NCBI GenBank assembly: GCA_021792955.1
Contig: JAJYTP010000005.1
Location: 1 to 61,346, forward strand
Source of the DNA: an archaeon
GTDB taxonomy: Archaea > Thermoproteota > Nitrososphaeria > Conexivisphaerales > UBA164
Direction: 5' to 3'
DNA length: 61,346 bases
A program made the position numbers and the translations under genes. The notes beneath the pieces are model-generated. The model was not told the origin of the DNA and did not search any database. It worked only from the letters and a program-made list of their open reading frames with translations. This document shows positions 5,024-30,902 of this stretch, piece by piece (position 1 is the first letter of the stretch; every line of letters begins with the position of its first letter).

Positions 5024-5043
5024 TGTAGTTGCTGGTTAAGGGC

Positions 5044-5388
5044 GTGAGCAGTATAATAAGGAACGTCGAAAACCCACTACTGGGTAGAAAGGAGGTTACG
5101 ATCATCTTCAAGGACGCCAGTGGGAAACTAACAAAAAACGAAGGTATAGAGCAAGTCGTTAAAGAGCTTAAAGTTAAACCTGAAAGCGTTATACCCATGT
5201 CGTTAAAGGGCAAATATGGAACTAGGGATATCGTCGGCACATTCTACGTTTACAAGGATATAAATTTGGCCAAGAAGCAGCTTCCGGAGTACATTTTCAG
5301 CAGAATGCTCCCAAAGGAAGATAGAAAGAAACTCTTGGATGAAAGGAAGAAGAAGGCCGTTCCAGCGGCTAAAAAGCTAGCGAAGTGA
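5044..5388 (+). CDS. rps24e: Small-subunit ribosomal protein S24e
   Basis: Component of the 30S subunit. The body (ENPLLGRKEV near the start, GKYGTRDIVGTFYVYKD in the middle, and a basic lysine-rich tail) matches archaeal S24e in sequence and length. I prefer the GTG at 5044, giving MSSIIRNVENPLL, because it matches the usual family start and sits at the expected distance from a TATA-like box; a TTG at 5029 would add five residues. S27ae follows six bases downstream, the usual archaeal gene pair. Confidence 0.95.
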   Translation: MSSIIRNVENPLLGRKEVTIIFKDASGKLTKNEGIEQVVKELKVKPESVIPMSLKGKYGTRDIVGTFYVYKDINLAKKQLPEYIFSRMLPKEDRKKLLDERKKKAVPAAKKLAK

Positions 5389-5394
5389 TTGTAA

Positions 5395-5562
5395 ATGGTA
5401 AAAACAACACAAGTATGGAAATATTATAAGGTTGAAGGAGCGTCCGTGCAGAGGCTGAAGAAATTTTGCCCACGATGCGGGAGGGGCGTTTTTTTGGCCG
5501 TTCATTCTAACCGATTGTATTGTGGTAAGTGCGGTTATACCGAATACGTAACCAAGCAGTAA
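5395..5562 (+). CDS. rps27ae: Small-subunit ribosomal protein S27ae
   Basis: A 55-residue zinc-ribbon protein of the 30S subunit. Zinc ligands are C25 and C28 (CPRCG) and C43 and C46 (CGKCGYTEY). The aromatic-rich start WKYYKVEG is typical. It starts with ATG six bases after the S24e stop, in the standard archaeal S24e-S27ae arrangement. No ubiquitin-like fusion is present, as expected outside eukaryotes. Confidence 0.95.
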
Positions 5563-5699: not shown

Positions 5700-7358
5700 T
5701 TAGCCGATAAAGTGAGAAGCAACCTCCTTCTGGAAATAGCTAAGGTTGTTTGGATTTATAACGGTCCTGAAGGGCAGGATGAACTTGGGATTTGCAGCGC
5801 CCTTTAAAATCTCCTTGTCTCCATACTCTAGATAGAGGTTCGAAAAGATCTCAAGGAATTCGGAAGTTCTCTTCCTATCCTTTGCAAGCGCTAGCGAAAA
5901 GTAAACGAATTCGGCTACATCCCAACATTTGTCCGACATCGGAGCATCATCCTTGAATTGTTCCAAATCTATCAGATAGATCTCCCTGTCCTTTTTTATC
6001 ATATTTTCGGGTTTTGTATCCCCTATTGACATGCTGGCATTATGGCAAGTGGCGAATATTCGGGCAACGTCTCCTATTACCTCCCCTCCTTCGCCGCTAG
6101 CCATATATCTCATTATCGTATCTGTTAGAAGTTCTCCATCGATCGATTCCCTGACCAGTATCTTGCTCCTTACAGATACAGCAAGTATATTTGGGGTCAT
6201 GATGCCGATATCCTTCAACCTCAGACTTCCTACATATTCATTAGATAGGCGTGAAATGGGTGAAATGGAAAAGGCCTTGACTGACCTGTTTAGGGCTCCC
6301 AAAATATACCACTTTATCTGTAAAGTATCCCCAAAGTCCTTTACTATGAACTTTTTCTGCCCTCTATCTAATATGTATAGTGTAGCTGTTGAATAGAACC
6401 TTCCCAATTGCTTTTTGGTGACCTCCCGATCGTTAAAGCCCTCGTGGTTTGCTAATGCCGAAAGCCAATCATCGCGGTTTATAAGGTAACCCACCTTAAG
6501 CGTCAGGAGCGAATATGGATTTTCCAAGTACTCTGGTAGGACACCCATATCGCTTGCCCTCCTGATCTTGGATACCGTTTCCCTGATGATTATATCCAGG
6601 CCGACGCTGCCGCTAAGGCCGTGAGTAACGTATTGCCTTATCGCCCTTTCGATAAACTTGATATTCTTTTTAAATTGTGAACTCCTAAGCATATGAAGCA
6701 CATCTTGTTGAACTGTGAATCCATTTTCCATTGCTATGCCAAGATGGTCTGCTTCGAGGGCCTTTGCGGCATCTCTGAATCCTTCGCTTGCCCTTCTGAC
6801 GTTTAATTGATAGTTTTCGTGGTTATAGGTTTTCACGTAACTGTAAAGTACAGGCCTATATATTGTGGCCCTTTTCTTTAACTTTGAAAAAAGGAAGAAT
6901 TCGTATGGCATATCCATATAGAGAATAAGTCTTTCATAATGTTCGTATAGATCCCTTAGCTCCTCGAGCATCACCCTCTTTCTGTAGGTACCCGATATAT
7001 CTTCGAGTATTGTTTTCCCCTTGAGCGGAATATACGGGTTCAGCAGTCTTCCAACGACGAACTCTCCAAGCTTTGCCCACTTTGCATCCATCACAAGTTG
7101 TTCCTCATCTACAGCTAGGATTGAAAGCATACGATCGTCGCCGGTGGATGTGTATATGTACTTGACATCTTTGAACTCAGGTATAACCACTAGAATATCG
7201 TAGTCACTATCGGCCTTGGCATATCCAGCCACCCTGCTACCATATAGCGCCACAGCACTGGGCTGGAACCTTGTTTGAACATAATCCATAACCTCTCCCT
7301 TCACTATTTCCAGTGGCCCCGGTGGCCCGCTACTAGGCCGGTCCTGATTATCGCTCAT
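5700..7358 (-). CDS. Polymerase-beta-type nucleotidyltransferase fused to a Bud32/RIO-like kinase domain
   Basis: A 552-residue two-enzyme protein of unknown role. Residues 20-110 form a nucleotidyltransferase domain: GSRVAGYAKADSDYD (40-54) holds the GS motif and the two metal-binding Asp. Residues 130-300 are helical and unassigned. Residues 320-500 read as a Bud32/RIO-like kinase: FIVKDF with K340 as the likely strand-3 lysine, SIGDTKPENM (444-453) as the catalytic loop with D447 and N452, and YLIDLEQ with D464 at the metal-binding position. Histidine of the usual HGD is Ile. It starts inside the stop of the metalloprotease gene (ATGA overlap), so the two are translationally coupled. No function is claimed. 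Confidence 0.85.
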   Translation of the reverse strand: MSDNQDRPSSGPPGPLEIVKGEVMDYVQTRFQPSAVALYGSRVAGYAKADSDYDILVVIPEFKDVKYIYTSTGDDRMLSILAVDEEQLVMDAKWAKLGEFVVGRLLNPYIPLKGKTILEDISGTYRKRVMLEELRDLYEHYERLILYMDMPYEFFLFSKLKKRATIYRPVLYSYVKTYNHENYQLNVRRASEGFRDAAKALEADHLGIAMENGFTVQQDVLHMLRSSQFKKNIKFIERAIRQYVTHGLSGSVGLDIIIRETVSKIRRASDMGVLPEYLENPYSLLTLKVGYLINRDDWLSALANHEGFNDREVTKKQLGRFYSTATLYILDRGQKKFIVKDFGDTLQIKWYILGALNRSVKAFSISPISRLSNEYVGSLRLKDIGIMTPNILAVSVRSKILVRESIDGELLTDTIMRYMASGEGGEVIGDVARIFATCHNASMSIGDTKPENMIKKDREIYLIDLEQFKDDAPMSDKCWDVAEFVYFSLALAKDRKRTSEFLEIFSNLYLEYGDKEILKGAANPKFILPFRTVINPNNLSYFQKEVASHFIG

Positions 7359-8086
7359 TTTTTCTTCACATTGCCTATCAGTTTAAGGACATCCTCTGGA
7401 ATCTTGTATTCCATTAATGCCCTAACGGGCAAATCAGTGTTGTTATCCTCGGGTACAATTCGCTTAACGGGTAATGACTTAGATATCCATAGGTTCAGCG
7501 TTTTTTTATTAAGGGCATCATCAGAAAGCCCGTTTTGGAATTTCTTGTCTATAGATTTTATTATGGATCGGTGTCTTCCAAATATCTTGCTGGGGTCAAA
7601 TAGTGCTTCCTCATCCGTATAGAGAGATTCGTGAATCGTATATGATGTCTCGGCTGTCTGTACGCGAAAGTCGTTTATTCGCTGAGAGAAGTCCACGTAA
7701 TGTGAGAATTCGTGGGCCATTGCAGCCAGAAGCGTATCCTTAGAAGCGTACAGCAGCAATGGACCAGTTATCTCGATTGTAATGTTCAACTTTCCATCAT
7801 CGGCTATTATGGGCACTAATCTTGAATACAAAATCGCTTGTTGCATCTGAGCGCTATCATCCATAATGAGCACATATGGAGAGGCGAACCAGTAAGGGTA
7901 CTTGGCTCCGCTTGCGGACTGAATTCTACTAACTATCGCTGAGGCAACCTGAGCTCGAGTTACCAGTTTATCCACCAAGTTCTTACTGAGCATGCCCTTC
8001 TTGAGGGCCTCATAGATGGGAAGGAGGTTCATCGAAATTTGACCACTCTGGCTCAAGGCTAATATAAATGGGTAACCAGTCCTCAT
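7355..8086 (-). CDS. HExxH zinc metalloprotease-like protein, operon partner of the fusion protein
   Basis: Probable soluble metallopeptidase. AAMAHEFSHYVDF (121-133) contains the HExxH zinc motif, and acidic residues in TDEEALFD downstream could supply the third ligand, as in gluzincins. There are no clear membrane helices, unlike HtpX. Two starts are possible: ATG 8086, or ATG 8032 (MNLLPIYEALKKG), which has a TATA-like stretch at 8057-8072 at roughly the right distance. The last codon overlaps the next gene as ATGA. The link to a nucleotidyltransferase-kinase is unusual and suggests a joint role. Confidence 0.75.
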   Translation of the reverse strand: MRTGYPFILALSQSGQISMNLLPIYEALKKGMLSKNLVDKLVTRAQVASAIVSRIQSASGAKYPYWFASPYVLIMDDSAQMQQAILYSRLVPIIADDGKLNITIEITGPLLLYASKDTLLAAMAHEFSHYVDFSQRINDFRVQTAETSYTIHESLYTDEEALFDPSKIFGRHRSIIKSIDKKFQNGLSDDALNKKTLNLWISKSLPVKRIVPEDNNTDLPVRALMEYKIPEDVLKLIGNVKKK

Positions 8087-11208: not shown

Positions 11209-11280
11209 ATGGCCGAAGACGAGAATCAGTCAATTCTGAAGCTCTATCGCGCTTTTGCTAAAAAAGATGAAAATAATTGA
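11209..11280 (+). CDS. 23-codon leader ORF overlapping the DEAD-box helicase
   Basis: ATG frame MAEDENQSILKLYRAFAKKD followed by ENN and TGA. The stop overlaps the TTG start of the helicase as TTGA. It lies at leaderless distance from the only TATA-like box. This layout suggests that ribosomes reach the helicase by reinitiation. It may be a regulatory leader or a real small protein; conservation is unknown. Confidence 0.4.
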   Translation: MAEDENQSILKLYRAFAKKDENN

Positions 11281-12641
11281 ATGAAGATGTAAATGGGTTT
11301 GAAGAACTCGGGTTAAATGAAGATTTGATGCGTAGACTTGATGAAATGAAGTTTAAGGAACCATTCCCTATTCAGGAAATGGCAATAGGGCACATCCTCA
11401 ATGGAGAGGATATAATTGGGCAGGCAAAGACGGGATCTGGAAAGACGGCCGCATTTGGGCTACCTCTCCTGAAGTTAATCAATACAGGATCAGATAATAT
11501 TCAGGGACTGATCCTTGCACCCACAAGGGAATTGGCAGTCCAAATAACCAACGACCTACGCAGTATGGGCAAGTATGTAGGAGTGAAGGTTGTAACCCTC
11601 TATGGAGGACAGTCTATTAACAGACAGCTTGAAGAGCTCGACGAAGGCCCTCAAATAATCGTAGGTACCCCAGGCAGGATAATCGATTTATTAGATCACC
11701 ATCATCTGGACTTTGATCAAGTCAGACATGTAGTTATAGATGAAGCAGACAGAATGCTTGATATGGGGTTCATTGAAGATGTTGAATATATACTTAAGAG
11801 GATACCAGCCGATAGGCAGATCAATCTATTCTCTGCGACTATGCCACAGGAAGTAACGGATTTAGCTTCAAAATATATGAAGAATCCCAAACATATATTC
11901 ATAAGCGCTGATGAGCCATCTGTTGACGAGCTAGATCAATATTATGCAGCAGTGGAGCGCGACACAAAACTTGAAAGGTTGTTGCAGGTGCTCGAAGATG
12001 AAACGCCATCAAGCTGTATAATATTTTGTAGGACAAAGCAGGGAGCCAGATGGCTGACCAGAAGCCTCGAAAAGAACAAATATAACGTCGTACCACTTCA
12101 CGGAGACCTTTCTCAGTATCAAAGGGATAAGTCTATGCAGGCGTTTAGGAATGGGCGCGCTCAAATACTGGTAGCTACTGATGTTGCAGCAAGAGGCATC
12201 AATGTCCCCAATATTGAGCTTATCTTAAATTATGATTTCCCCTCAGAGTCTTTGATGTATTTTCATAGGGTAGGAAGAACCGCTAGAGCCGGTAAAAACG
12301 GTAAATCCATTTCCTTCGTTACACCAATTGATTATCAGGTATTCGAAGATGTAAGATCGAAGACAAAGGCAGAGATAAAACCGTTAAGCCCAAATGATAA
12401 GGAAAGGATAGATCATTTTAGAGGTTATGTAGGCCAATTCGAGCTTCGGAAGCGCCGATATGGCGACAGGCATAGTTTTGGCGACAGGCATAGTTTTGGC
12501 GACAGGCATAGTTTTGGCGACAGGCATAGTTTTGGCGACAGGCATAGTTTTGGCGACAGGCATAGTTTTGGCGACAGATCCCATTCCGAGCAAACGAGAA
12601 AAATACCAAGTTGGTTAACTCAACGAAGGAATAACAACTGA
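11277..12641 (+). CDS. DEAD-box RNA helicase with tandem-repeat tail
   Basis: ATP-dependent RNA unwinding or remodelling enzyme. All core motifs are present in order: AKTGSGKT (Walker A), PTRELA, GTPGR, DEAD in VIDEADRMLD, SAT, and HRVGRTARAG. The core ends near residue 390. The tail (about 395-454) contains six exact GDRHSF repeats plus a partial seventh, then a basic end RKIPSWLTQRRNNN. Such a repetitive tail resembles the RNA-binding tails of bacterial DEAD-box proteins. The start is TTG overlapping the leader ORF; no better start is visible before the Q motif. Confidence 0.95.
   Translation: MNEDVNGFEELGLNEDLMRRLDEMKFKEPFPIQEMAIGHILNGEDIIGQAKTGSGKTAAFGLPLLKLINTGSDNIQGLILAPTRELAVQITNDLRSMGKYVGVKVVTLYGGQSINRQLEELDEGPQIIVGTPGRIIDLLDHHHLDFDQVRHVVIDEADRMLDMGFIEDVEYILKRIPADRQINLFSATMPQEVTDLASKYMKNPKHIFISADEPSVDELDQYYAAVERDTKLERLLQVLEDETPSSCIIFCRTKQGARWLTRSLEKNKYNVVPLHGDLSQYQRDKSMQAFRNGRAQILVATDVAARGINVPNIELILNYDFPSESLMYFHRVGRTARAGKNGKSISFVTPIDYQVFEDVRSKTKAEIKPLSPNDKERIDHFRGYVGQFELRKRRYGDRHSFGDRHSFGDRHSFGDRHSFGDRHSFGDRHSFGDRSHSEQTRKIPSWLTQRRNNN
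12462..12569 (+). repeat. Six exact 18-bp tandem repeats inside the helicase gene
   Basis: The unit GGCGACAGGCATAGTTTT is repeated six times without any change, followed by a partial unit at 12570. Identity at silent positions suggests recent expansion by slippage or unequal exchange. The unit is a multiple of three, so copy changes keep the frame and alter tail length by six residues. Confidence 0.98.
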
Positions 12642-27321: not shown

Positions 27322-28575
27322 ATGCCGACACCTTCTCACTCGGACCTTCTTCATGATGACGGCGTCAGGAGATGGTACGATAACACTTCAAGGGGCTCCA
27401 TCATCACCGCCTCCGTGTACCTGCGAAGGCTCGGGAACTTCTGTAATGAACGCGGAATAATCCCGAGCGACCTGTTACGTATGAGCCCCAGACAGCTTCA
27501 GGACCTGCTTCTGGATACCGTAAGCAAAATGGAAAAGAATGGCTACGCGGGCAGCTATATCCAGGGATACATAAAGGCCATAAGGTCCTGGCTCCTGTTC
27601 AATGACATCGAGCTCAAGTCGAGGAGGATCAAGATCAAGGGGACAACCGCTTCTCCGACCCTGAAGGACGAAAGGGTTCCTACACTGGGCGAACTGAAGA
27701 AAATATTTCTGTCGTGCGATGCGAAACAGAGGGCGGCTTGCGTCCTGATGGCTCATTCGGGCCTCAGGCCCGAGGTGCTCGGGGACTATACGGGAAGGGA
27801 CGGGTTGAAGGTTTCGGATCTGCCCGAGATGGAGGTCAAGGGGGAGGTGACGTTCAGGAAAATACCCACGATAGTGGTGGTCAGAAGCGAGCTCAGCAAG
27901 GCCAAACATCAGTACTTTTCCTTCTTGGGCGAAGAGGGATGCGAGTACCTGAGGAACTACATGCAGGAAAGGATGAGGGGCGGCGAGGCCTTGGGACCCG
28001 ACTCACCGGTAATAACGCCCAAGGTCGCAAGGAAGCCCTTCATCCGGACGATAAACATAGGGGATATGGTGAGGCTTGCCATAAGAGGTGCCGGGTTTCC
28101 GTGGCGACCCTATGTCCTCCGTTCTTACTTCGACACGCAGCTCCTGCTGGCGGAAAGCAAAGGACTGGTCGCCCGAGATTACAGAACCTTCTGGATGGGG
28201 CATGTAGGTGACATAGAGAACAGATATACGACGAACCGCGCCCGCCTGCCGGATGATATGATCGAGGACATGCGTCAATCATACAAAAGGGCCTTAAAAT
28301 ACTTGGAGACCAACGTGAAGGAAGAAAGGAACATTGCAGGTGAGACAAGAAGACAGCTCCTCGCCATCATGGGCTTCAAGGAGGAGGAGATCGAGAAGAT
28401 GGGAGACCTGAGCGACGAAAAGGTGAGGGAGGCGGTGAAGGACAGATTTTTGGGAAGCTCTAATCAGCATAGGCAGGTCGTGGTGGGGAAAGGGGATGTG
28501 CCAAAGCTCCTTGGGTCGGGGTACGAATTCGTGTCTCCGCTGGGGGATTCACAGGCCGTGCTGAGGGAGCCGTAG
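27322..28575 (+). CDS. Tyrosine recombinase/integrase
   Basis: Site-specific DNA recombinase of 417 residues. An N-terminal SAM-like core-binding domain (about 20-105) is followed by the catalytic domain: R149 in HSGLRPEVLG, K193/K195 in the beta-hairpin, R267 in RPYVLRSYF (the usual His three residues before is Tyr264), H294 in MGHVGDIENRYT and the nucleophile Y302. A helical extension follows to residue 417, longer than XerA. TATA-like ATTATATAGC near 27296 gives a leaderless ATG. It sits 50 bases after tRNA-Met, as expected for a tRNA-targeting integrase. Confidence 0.9.
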   Translation: MPTPSHSDLLHDDGVRRWYDNTSRGSIITASVYLRRLGNFCNERGIIPSDLLRMSPRQLQDLLLDTVSKMEKNGYAGSYIQGYIKAIRSWLLFNDIELKSRRIKIKGTTASPTLKDERVPTLGELKKIFLSCDAKQRAACVLMAHSGLRPEVLGDYTGRDGLKVSDLPEMEVKGEVTFRKIPTIVVVRSELSKAKHQYFSFLGEEGCEYLRNYMQERMRGGEALGPDSPVITPKVARKPFIRTINIGDMVRLAIRGAGFPWRPYVLRSYFDTQLLLAESKGLVARDYRTFWMGHVGDIENRYTTNRARLPDDMIEDMRQSYKRALKYLETNVKEERNIAGETRRQLLAIMGFKEEEIEKMGDLSDEKVREAVKDRFLGSSNQHRQVVVGKGDVPKLLGSGYEFVSPLGDSQAVLREP

Positions 28576-29310: not shown

Positions 29311-29946
29311 ATGAAAATGAGCACCCTGATGAAAAGGCTCCGCCTAGAGGATAAGAGGTTCATAACTTCGTCCGAACTGAAGTCCTACTGCGCGTCCATG
29401 AAGCTGGACTACGACACTACGGTCAGGTACTTTGAATCCAGAAGGGAGATCATAAGGATCTTCAGGGGGGTGTTCTACGTCAGGTCCCTCGACGAAGTGA
29501 AGCTTGGGCGGGCCGGACGTAACCACCTGGAGCTCGTCGCACGCGGACTGCAGATAAAGGGGGTGAAGAAATGGTACTTCGGACTGCACACGGCGCTCAA
29601 ACTGAACAACATGACCCACGAACACTATACTGTGGATGAGGTGGTCACAGATAGCCTCTTTAGGGCAAAGCCCATGACCATCTCCGGCCATAAGTTCAGG
29701 TTCATCAAGCTCTCGCCAGCCCTTTTCGACTTCGGGATCATAGAGAAGGACGGTCTCAGGTTCTCCGACCCAGAGAAGACCATCCTTGATTTCATATACG
29801 TCTGGAGGTACAATGGCATACCCGAGGAGAGAATAGTGGGTGACCTTTCCGACTGGACTGGGATTGTCTCCTGGGCCACCATGGCAAGGTACGCAAGAAA
29901 ATATCCGGCCACCGTCCTCAAGACCGTAAAGGAGGCATCGGAATGA
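29311..29946 (+). CDS. abiEi: AbiEi-like antitoxin/transcriptional regulator
   Basis: Probable antitoxin of a type IV toxin-antitoxin pair. An N-terminal winged helix-turn-helix (about 10-60; FITSSELKSYCASM, IIRIFRGVFYVRSL) is followed by the AbiEi-type domain with FGLHTALKLNNM and the hallmark FSDPEKTILDFIY. The 211 residues match the family. The toxin gene begins inside its stop codon (ATGA), so the two are translated together. It probably represses its own promoter. Confidence 0.85.
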   Translation: MKMSTLMKRLRLEDKRFITSSELKSYCASMKLDYDTTVRYFESRREIIRIFRGVFYVRSLDEVKLGRAGRNHLELVARGLQIKGVKKWYFGLHTALKLNNMTHEHYTVDEVVTDSLFRAKPMTISGHKFRFIKLSPALFDFGIIEKDGLRFSDPEKTILDFIYVWRYNGIPEERIVGDLSDWTGIVSWATMARYARKYPATVLKTVKEASE

Positions 29947-30902
29947 GGGCTGACTTTGCACAGGCGGTTGCCGATGGGTTGAACATCGGACGTGCGGACC
30001 TTGTGGAGAGGGATATCATCATACACCAACTGCTGCTTGATCTCTCAAGGGACAAGTTCTTTTCAGGAAACTTCACGTTCAAGGGTGGGACGTGCCTGAT
30101 CAAGTGCTATTATGGCTACATGAGGTTCTCAGAAGATGTGGACTTCACATGGAAGAAGCAGGACGCGTTCACTGGGCAGTCACAGAAGGCCATAAGGAGG
30201 GTCCTGTCGGGCGTCATCGACCGGGTGGGAGCGCTGCTAGAAGGGATAGCCCGCAGGAGGGAGATGGATTTTAAGTTCCTGAAGGGCGACAGGAGGTATG
30301 TAGAACTGGGCGGCAGCGACAGGATCTGCACCTTCAAGGTATGGTATGAATCGCAGGTTATGAAGCGCAGTAGCTTCATCAAGATCCAGATCAACTTCGT
30401 CGAGAGCCTATGCTTTGGGCTAAAGAATGGAGAGCTGAGCAGCCTTCTTTCTAAAGGGAATAGCGAACTCAGGGCGCTATTTCCGGAGGATTACGGAGAA
30501 TACCATCGGGCCATCAATTTCACTATCTATGACGTTCGTGAAATACTGAGCGAAAAGGTGCGCGCCATCCTAACGAGAAGGGGAACCAAGGCAAGGGACT
30601 TCTTGGACATCTATCTTATCTACAGAAGATATGGGATGAAGCCCCAGGATGTGGAACACTGTATAATGAACAAGGTCAGCTATTCTCTTAGGATGTACAT
30701 CAAGTACAGGGAGAACCTTGTTAAGAAGGCAAGACTGCTGGAAACCGGGGAGATGTTCAGCTGGGGTCAGGAGCGCAGCCTGCTCATAGGCGAAATAGAC
30801 GAAAGGGACTTCTATTCCTTTATCCGCGGGCTTTACGCATTTCTGATGCAGGTCACAAAGGCCTCCGGCGGCTTTGGCCCACAGGGTGGCAGCAATAAAT
30901 AG
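29943..30902 (+). CDS. abiEii: AbiEii-like nucleotidyltransferase toxin
   Basis: Polymerase-beta-type nucleotidyltransferase of the AbiEii/AbiGii family. The signature FKGGTCLIKCYYGYMRFSED runs from residue 46, followed by VDFT, with GG at 48-49 and the metal-binding Asp near 65-67. The later segment REILSEKVRAILTRRGTKARDFLDIYLI is also typical. Family members block growth, some by adding nucleotides to tRNA 3' ends. At 319 residues it looks intact and active. In a tRNA-adjacent island it could stabilise the element or act in phage defence. Confidence 0.88.
   Translation: MRADFAQAVADGLNIGRADLVERDIIIHQLLLDLSRDKFFSGNFTFKGGTCLIKCYYGYMRFSEDVDFTWKKQDAFTGQSQKAIRRVLSGVIDRVGALLEGIARRREMDFKFLKGDRRYVELGGSDRICTFKVWYESQVMKRSSFIKIQINFVESLCFGLKNGELSSLLSKGNSELRALFPEDYGEYHRAINFTIYDVREILSEKVRAILTRRGTKARDFLDIYLIYRRYGMKPQDVEHCIMNKVSYSLRMYIKYRENLVKKARLLETGEMFSWGQERSLLIGEIDERDFYSFIRGLYAFLMQVTKASGGFGPQGGSNK

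Follow-up and report, generated by a model that had tools for sequence, protein, structure and literature searches.

A conserved nucleotidyltransferase-kinase fusion encoded beside a zincin-like HExxH protein in Nitrososphaeria

In an archaeon of the class Nitrososphaeria, a Pol-β-type nucleotidyltransferase (NT) and an atypical kinase are joined in one protein, here termed NTK, whose gene shares an operon with that of a HExxH protein. The NTK family forms a clade of atypical kinases of its own, adjacent to Bud32 and widespread in Thermoproteota; the HExxH protein belongs to an independent zincin-like family. This architecture is real, conserved, of a housekeeping nature and apparently undescribed. 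Targeted searches of a literature largely outside the subscription journals returned no account of an NT-kinase fusion family, in agreement with the original remark that no described system of this composition is known. A study of archaeal ubiquitin-like proteins (PMC2948915) was set aside, as it treats a different NT-protease pair, composed of a cytidylyltransferase and Jab.

Domain architecture of NTK and the HExxH protein

NTK comprises 552 residues and is encoded on the reverse strand at positions 5700-7358 of the window, the 61,346-nucleotide stretch of DNA analyzed here, as defined by its open reading frame and domain matches. The NT half contains the catalytic motif GSRVAGYAKADSDYD (residues 40-54; 7197-7241, reverse strand), in which Gly40, Ser41, Asp52 and Asp54 are invariant in an alignment of 24 homologues. 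It combines the GSx(9)SDxD pattern of the Pol-β superfamily with a match to NTP_transf_2 (PF01909; E 1.7e-6, 28.7 bits) above the gathering score of 21. The helical middle domain (residues about 115-270; 6549-7016, reverse strand), delimited by alignment, model and fold search, features invariant Arg128, Glu132 and Arg163 residues together with YxPxxYSY and Y243xxH246 motifs in the homologue alignment, and is KNT/ANT-like when taken with the NT half. An AlphaFold2 model of NTK is confident along nearly the whole chain (pLDDT 90.2, pTM 0.88), and Foldseek searches with its NT half returned KNT, ANT(4') and Tam41 among the matches. NTK therefore shares the fold of an NT plus helical domain with kanamycin/ANT nucleotidyltransferases and Tam41, but it has no sequence-level membership of these families and, in NTK, a kinase follows.

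The kinase domain spans residues about 310-552 (5703-6431, reverse strand) and includes the catalytic loop GDTKPEN (residues 446-452; 6003-6023, reverse strand) and a DLEQ motif (residues 464-467; 5958-5969, reverse strand) that replaces DFG. Lys340, Glu374, Asp447, Lys449, Asn452 and Asp464 are invariant in the 24 homologues, and the catalytic set of protein-kinase-like enzymes (Lys, Glu, catalytic Asp, Asn and metal-binding Asp) is complete in the same alignment.

The start codon of NTK overlaps the stop codon of the HExxH gene in an ATGA (7355-7358, reverse strand), which bears out the translational coupling first noted from this DNA. The HExxH gene (7355-8086, reverse strand) encodes 243 residues, with HEFSH at residues 125-129 (7700-7714, reverse strand). 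AHExxH is constant in 30 aligned homologues and HExxH is present in all 42 inspected, bearing out the assignment as a HExxH protein. A candidate third metal ligand lies in ESLYTD (Glu153 to Asp158; 7613-7630, reverse strand); Glu153 is kept in most homologues and lost in Caldarchaeales-type members, in which position 158 is still acidic (Asp or Glu).

The M48 Pfam score of the HExxH protein is 14.2 bits, below the gathering cut-off of 20.3, and a PDB fold search with its model (pLDDT 88) gave no significant match; on these two grounds M48 membership was rejected. Several enzymes with HExxH motifs are among the weak fold matches (minigluzincins, M1 aminopeptidases, Ste24 and a DPC-repair protease), and a SprT-like profile is weakly matched by 21 of 30 members (E up to 0.5, best 0.0061). 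What the protein shares with SprT-like, M48 and minigluzincin peptidases, beyond these weak profile and fold matches, is a HExxH motif in a zincin-like strand-helix arrangement; it differs from them in giving no significant match and in a third ligand that is not constant across the family. The motif suggests that the HExxH protein would have peptidase activity.

Ribosomal protein S24e (5029-5388, forward strand) and an S27ae-like frame (5389-5562, forward strand; read by eye, start approximate) are convergent, conserved neighbours of the pair. Comparison with two congeneric genomes gave omega values of 0.09-0.12 for NTK and the HExxH gene, indicating purifying selection and hence that both open reading frames are real genes. 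Elsewhere in the window, a DEAD-box helicase (11277-12641) carries GDRHSF repeats in its C-terminal tail, encoded by an 18-bp repeat in 6.5 perfect copies (12461-12577, forward strand). The interval 29311-30902 (forward strand) holds an AbiEii nucleotidyltransferase toxin (PF08843, E 4.9e-23; 29943-30902) that overlaps an upstream 211-aa open reading frame in the AbiEi position, and an integrase-like open reading frame without a Pfam match lies nearby (27322-28575).

Relation of the kinase half to Bud32 and RIO

The fusion of a Pol-β NT to a Bud32/RIO-like kinase, as originally predicted, is upheld on the NT side by the above-threshold PF01909 match and on the kinase side by profiles, fold and phylogeny. 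The Bud32 model TIGR03724 matches NTK with E 1.6e-14, yet the score of 53.9 bits falls far short of the equivalog cut-off, which is 125. When the 24-homologue NTK profile was compared with solved structures, Bud32/PRPK was matched at 5e-13 and RIO2 at 4e-8, and the best Foldseek matches of the kinase half of the model are likewise PRPK/Bud32 (E 4e-8). In an unrooted tree of kinase domains, the NTK family forms a single clade (100/97) that joins the side of Bud32 (98/92) and not that of RIO, whose clade (100/99) excludes it.

Bud32/PRPK of the KEOPS complex is thus the nearest kinase relative of NTK by profile, fold and tree, both being RIO-like small kinases. NTK is nevertheless distinct from it, with an NT fusion, the GDTKPEN and DLEQ motifs in place of the HGDLTTSN and DFG of Bud32, which are absent, a score of 54 bits where the cut-off is 125, and a true Bud32 that coexists with it. 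Each of the 14 genomes tested, the source genome among them (at C6, 196 bits against TIGR03724), has a gene for true Bud32 at another site, and RIO proteins are present in 13 of the 14. The sub-cut-off score and the separate clade rule out NTK as a duplicate of KEOPS Bud32, and membership of RIO1 or RIO2 is rejected by a RIO clade that leaves the NTK family out.

Distribution of NTK and the HExxH gene

In all 76 loci from the class Nitrososphaeria, the HExxH gene directly precedes NTK on the same strand, with -4 as the commonest spacing, and the pair usually faces S27ae-S24e. Adjacent homologues across the whole class place the pairing far from chance. We infer the Nitrosopumilaceae, Nitrososphaeraceae, Sulfolobales and Conexivisphaera labels of the compared genomes. 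The gene order in Nitrososphaeraceae is SRP54, Pus10, HExxH, NTK, and that of the source locus HExxH, NTK. Among 61 relatives, NTK was found in all families but two, namely a Nitrosopumilaceae-like family of complete genomes and a family sampled once, and the HExxH gene in 57, including all of the Nitrosopumilaceae-like family. The HExxH gene persists without NTK in Nitrosopumilaceae and in some Nitrososphaeraceae; in three loci of the latter (L281-L283) NTK is cleanly missing between the HExxH gene and S24e with the neighbours unchanged, while L284 retains it. The order Pus10, HExxH, S24e without NTK also occurs in ammonia oxidizers. One Nitrososphaeraceae NTK (L157, G426:C1:2101786-2103378) reads GNVKPKN where others have GDxKPxN, and is possibly a pseudokinase by its sequence, in a family in which NTK is also lost.

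In the non-ammonia-oxidizing families of the class, NTK is single-copy and near-universal at a constant locus, and its inheritance is apparently vertical. This vertical, single-copy, class-constant distribution indicates that NTK and the HExxH gene are housekeeping genes rather than a toxin-antitoxin system, contrary to the original suggestion of a toxin-antitoxin, sensor or antidote module. A toxic or target-modifying NT-kinase with the protease as sensor, activator or antidote would accord with the two-gene translational coupling, with weak matches of the NT domain to the MntA and PDC-S09 profiles and with a PD-T4-6 match of the kinase, and NTK has in common with type VII HEPN-MNT (MntA/HepT) systems a Pol-β NT of the MNT type. 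The PADLOC and MntA matches, however, are domain-level only; the locus, set in a constant ribosomal and SRP neighbourhood, holds no HEPN toxin gene, its neighbours being the HExxH protein and S24e/S27ae; NTK has a large fused kinase and a housekeeping rather than mobile or patchy distribution; each of the two genes survives alone in whole families; and the genuine NT-type toxin-antitoxin candidate of the window is AbiEii at 29943-30902. We consider a role in defence or as a toxin-antitoxin pair highly improbable.

The distribution of both genes was sampled across the phylum Thermoproteota. Among the matches listed, at least 149 of 398 genomes have NTK-family matches (E up to 3.5e-31), compared with about 1e-20 at best for genomes with Bud32 alone. 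The HExxH family occurs in 95 of the 398 genomes, nearly all of them Nitrososphaeria, with the addition of families f14 and f46, in which the gene beside it encodes an M42 aminopeptidase or resembles that of AdoHcy hydrolase. Only about 9 of these 95 also carry NTK, because the phylum sample is rich in ammonia oxidizers, and outside Nitrososphaeria the NTK family is almost always without the HExxH protein. In another family of the phylum (L276-L280), the HExxH gene is found beside M42 aminopeptidase, AdoHcy hydrolase-like and carboxylase-like genes with no adjacent NTK. The expected co-occurrence thus held within Nitrososphaeria (76 of 76) but not at phylum scale, where the kinase mostly occurs without the protease, nor in Nitrosopumilaceae and some Nitrososphaeraceae, where the protease occurs without the kinase. 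Homologues scattered without the protease had been named in advance as evidence against the original prediction, and because the phylum-scale NTK family mostly lacks it, this is in part what was found. The other result named in advance, a kinase domain left unsupported by profile searches, did not occur. Taken together, the distributions show NTK and the HExxH gene to be linked through their shared position within a single class, and not through a need of one for the other.

This bears on whether the two proteins form a functional pair in Nitrososphaeria, the HExxH protein processing or regulating the NT-kinase or both sharing a substrate. Same-strand adjacency in 76 of 76 loci from many families of the class, often with a 4-nt overlap, would favour such a partnership, but membership of a common translation operon can also account for adjacency, the link of the HExxH gene to Pus10 is just as strong where NTK is missing, and NTK occurs elsewhere without the HExxH gene. 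We regard a dedicated pair as unlikely, though worth keeping in mind.

Reduction of the NT half and possible roles of NTK

Alignment of 70 NTK-family members shows that the kinase is the part of the protein that evolution keeps, the NT being degenerate or lost in many lineages outside Nitrososphaeria and active-looking within the class. The kinase Lys and Glu and a D-x-EQ motif are present in 70 of 70, and the catalytic-loop Asp in all except L157, while the catalytic-loop Asn varies in L177, L191, L195, L196 and L198. The NT motif is intact outside the class in L122, L132, L150, L178, L198 and L203, altered in others (DSDYN for DSDYD in L200 and L201, YGP for YGS in L179 and L181-L183), and unrecognizable in further members. 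Kinase-only proteins of 223-267 aa (L168-L171, L207, L213, L214), among them a 224-aa Sulfolobales kinase without an NT, fall inside the NTK family in the tree, which makes truncated descendants their best interpretation.

The Sulfolobus kinase-only gene at L168 is followed by genes identified by eye as MoaA, PepQ, FolE, a HTH protein, GlnA, an ABC protein and thioredoxin, an order that we take to be SSO0361 to SSO0368. Judged by elimination and gene order, the orthologue is probably Saci_1477 / SSO0361 / SiRe_1639, which resembles the NTK kinase in being a single TM-free kinase domain with the catalytic Asp kept, neither RIO nor Bud32, and differs in being without the NT domain. Published kinase lists give Saci_1477 and SiRe_1639 as lacking a TM segment and as neither RIO nor Bud32, while SiRe_1057 was left out as a candidate since it has Glu at the catalytic Asp position (PMC5682000, PMC5300886). 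SiRe_1639 did not autophosphorylate in vitro and could be overexpressed without harm (PMC5682000), and saci_1477 insertion mutants are viable (PMC5300886). If orthologous, the kinase would accordingly be neither a robust autokinase nor essential in Sulfolobus.

In separate lineages, NTK has RNA-related neighbours: Pus10, Elp3 with a methyltransferase, TrpRS, CysRS, HisRS and an RNase J-like protein; others (TldD/PmbA, TBP, CofE, ACS) are less specific. At three loci (L206, L208, L217), an NTK with a decayed NT motif is one of a series of genes on one strand that includes Elp3 and a class I methyltransferase. Outside the class (L138, L141, L142, L177, L195, L197, L215), a TldD/PmbA metallopeptidase gene often lies head-to-head with NTK, and one or two copies of the cl47 family lie tail-to-tail with it; the reading of cl47, a tandem neighbour, as a nucleotidyltransferase was rejected for want of any Pfam or NCBIfam match. 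As TldD/PmbA is transcribed divergently and restricted to certain families, its place as a substitute protease is suggestive at most.

From the Bud32 affinity and these neighbours, an RNA- or tRNA-related role is our best guess for NTK, bearing in mind that such genes cluster anyway in these genomes. With confidence a little short of even, we favour an NTK kinase linked to RNA, tRNA or translation, with a co-expressed housekeeping HExxH protein. By analogy with Bud32 and RIO, the kinase domain would be the core ATP-using activity, with RNA or a protein connected with translation as its target. The NT and helical domains would form a substrate-binding module, which in Nitrososphaeria may also be able to transfer a nucleotide, and the HExxH protein would be a peptidase of housekeeping type, expressed together with SRP and translation genes, rather than a regulator dedicated to NTK.

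NTK could instead be a small-molecule enzyme that phosphorylates and nucleotidylates a metabolite, with a KNT/ANT/Tam41-like NT half and an MTR kinase/APH-like kinase half. Foldseek matches to 1kny, 7ecd, 2pun and 4gki and Pfam APH matches in 10 of 24 members are consistent with this, but Bud32/PRPK is the best match by both sequence and fold, NTK has no recurrent metabolic neighbour, and the NT is often lost with the kinase kept; we consider such an enzyme improbable. Returning to the translation-linked reading, it is conceivable, though we would stop short of calling it probable, that NTK represents a fourth conserved family of archaeal atypical kinases beside Bud32, RIO1 and RIO2, derived from an ancestral bifunctional NT-kinase that acted on tRNA or ribosomes in Thermoproteota and whose NT was repeatedly inactivated and finally shed.

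What is new here is a clade and a fusion within a known kinase superfamily, plus an uncharacterized HExxH family present in nearly all Nitrososphaeria, ammonia oxidizers included, with Pus10 as a constant neighbour. An orphan Sulfolobus kinase probably finds its place in the phylum-wide NTK family, whose domain fusion is unusual, and the series from active-looking NT to decayed NT to no NT offers natural material for separating the functions of the kinase and the NT.
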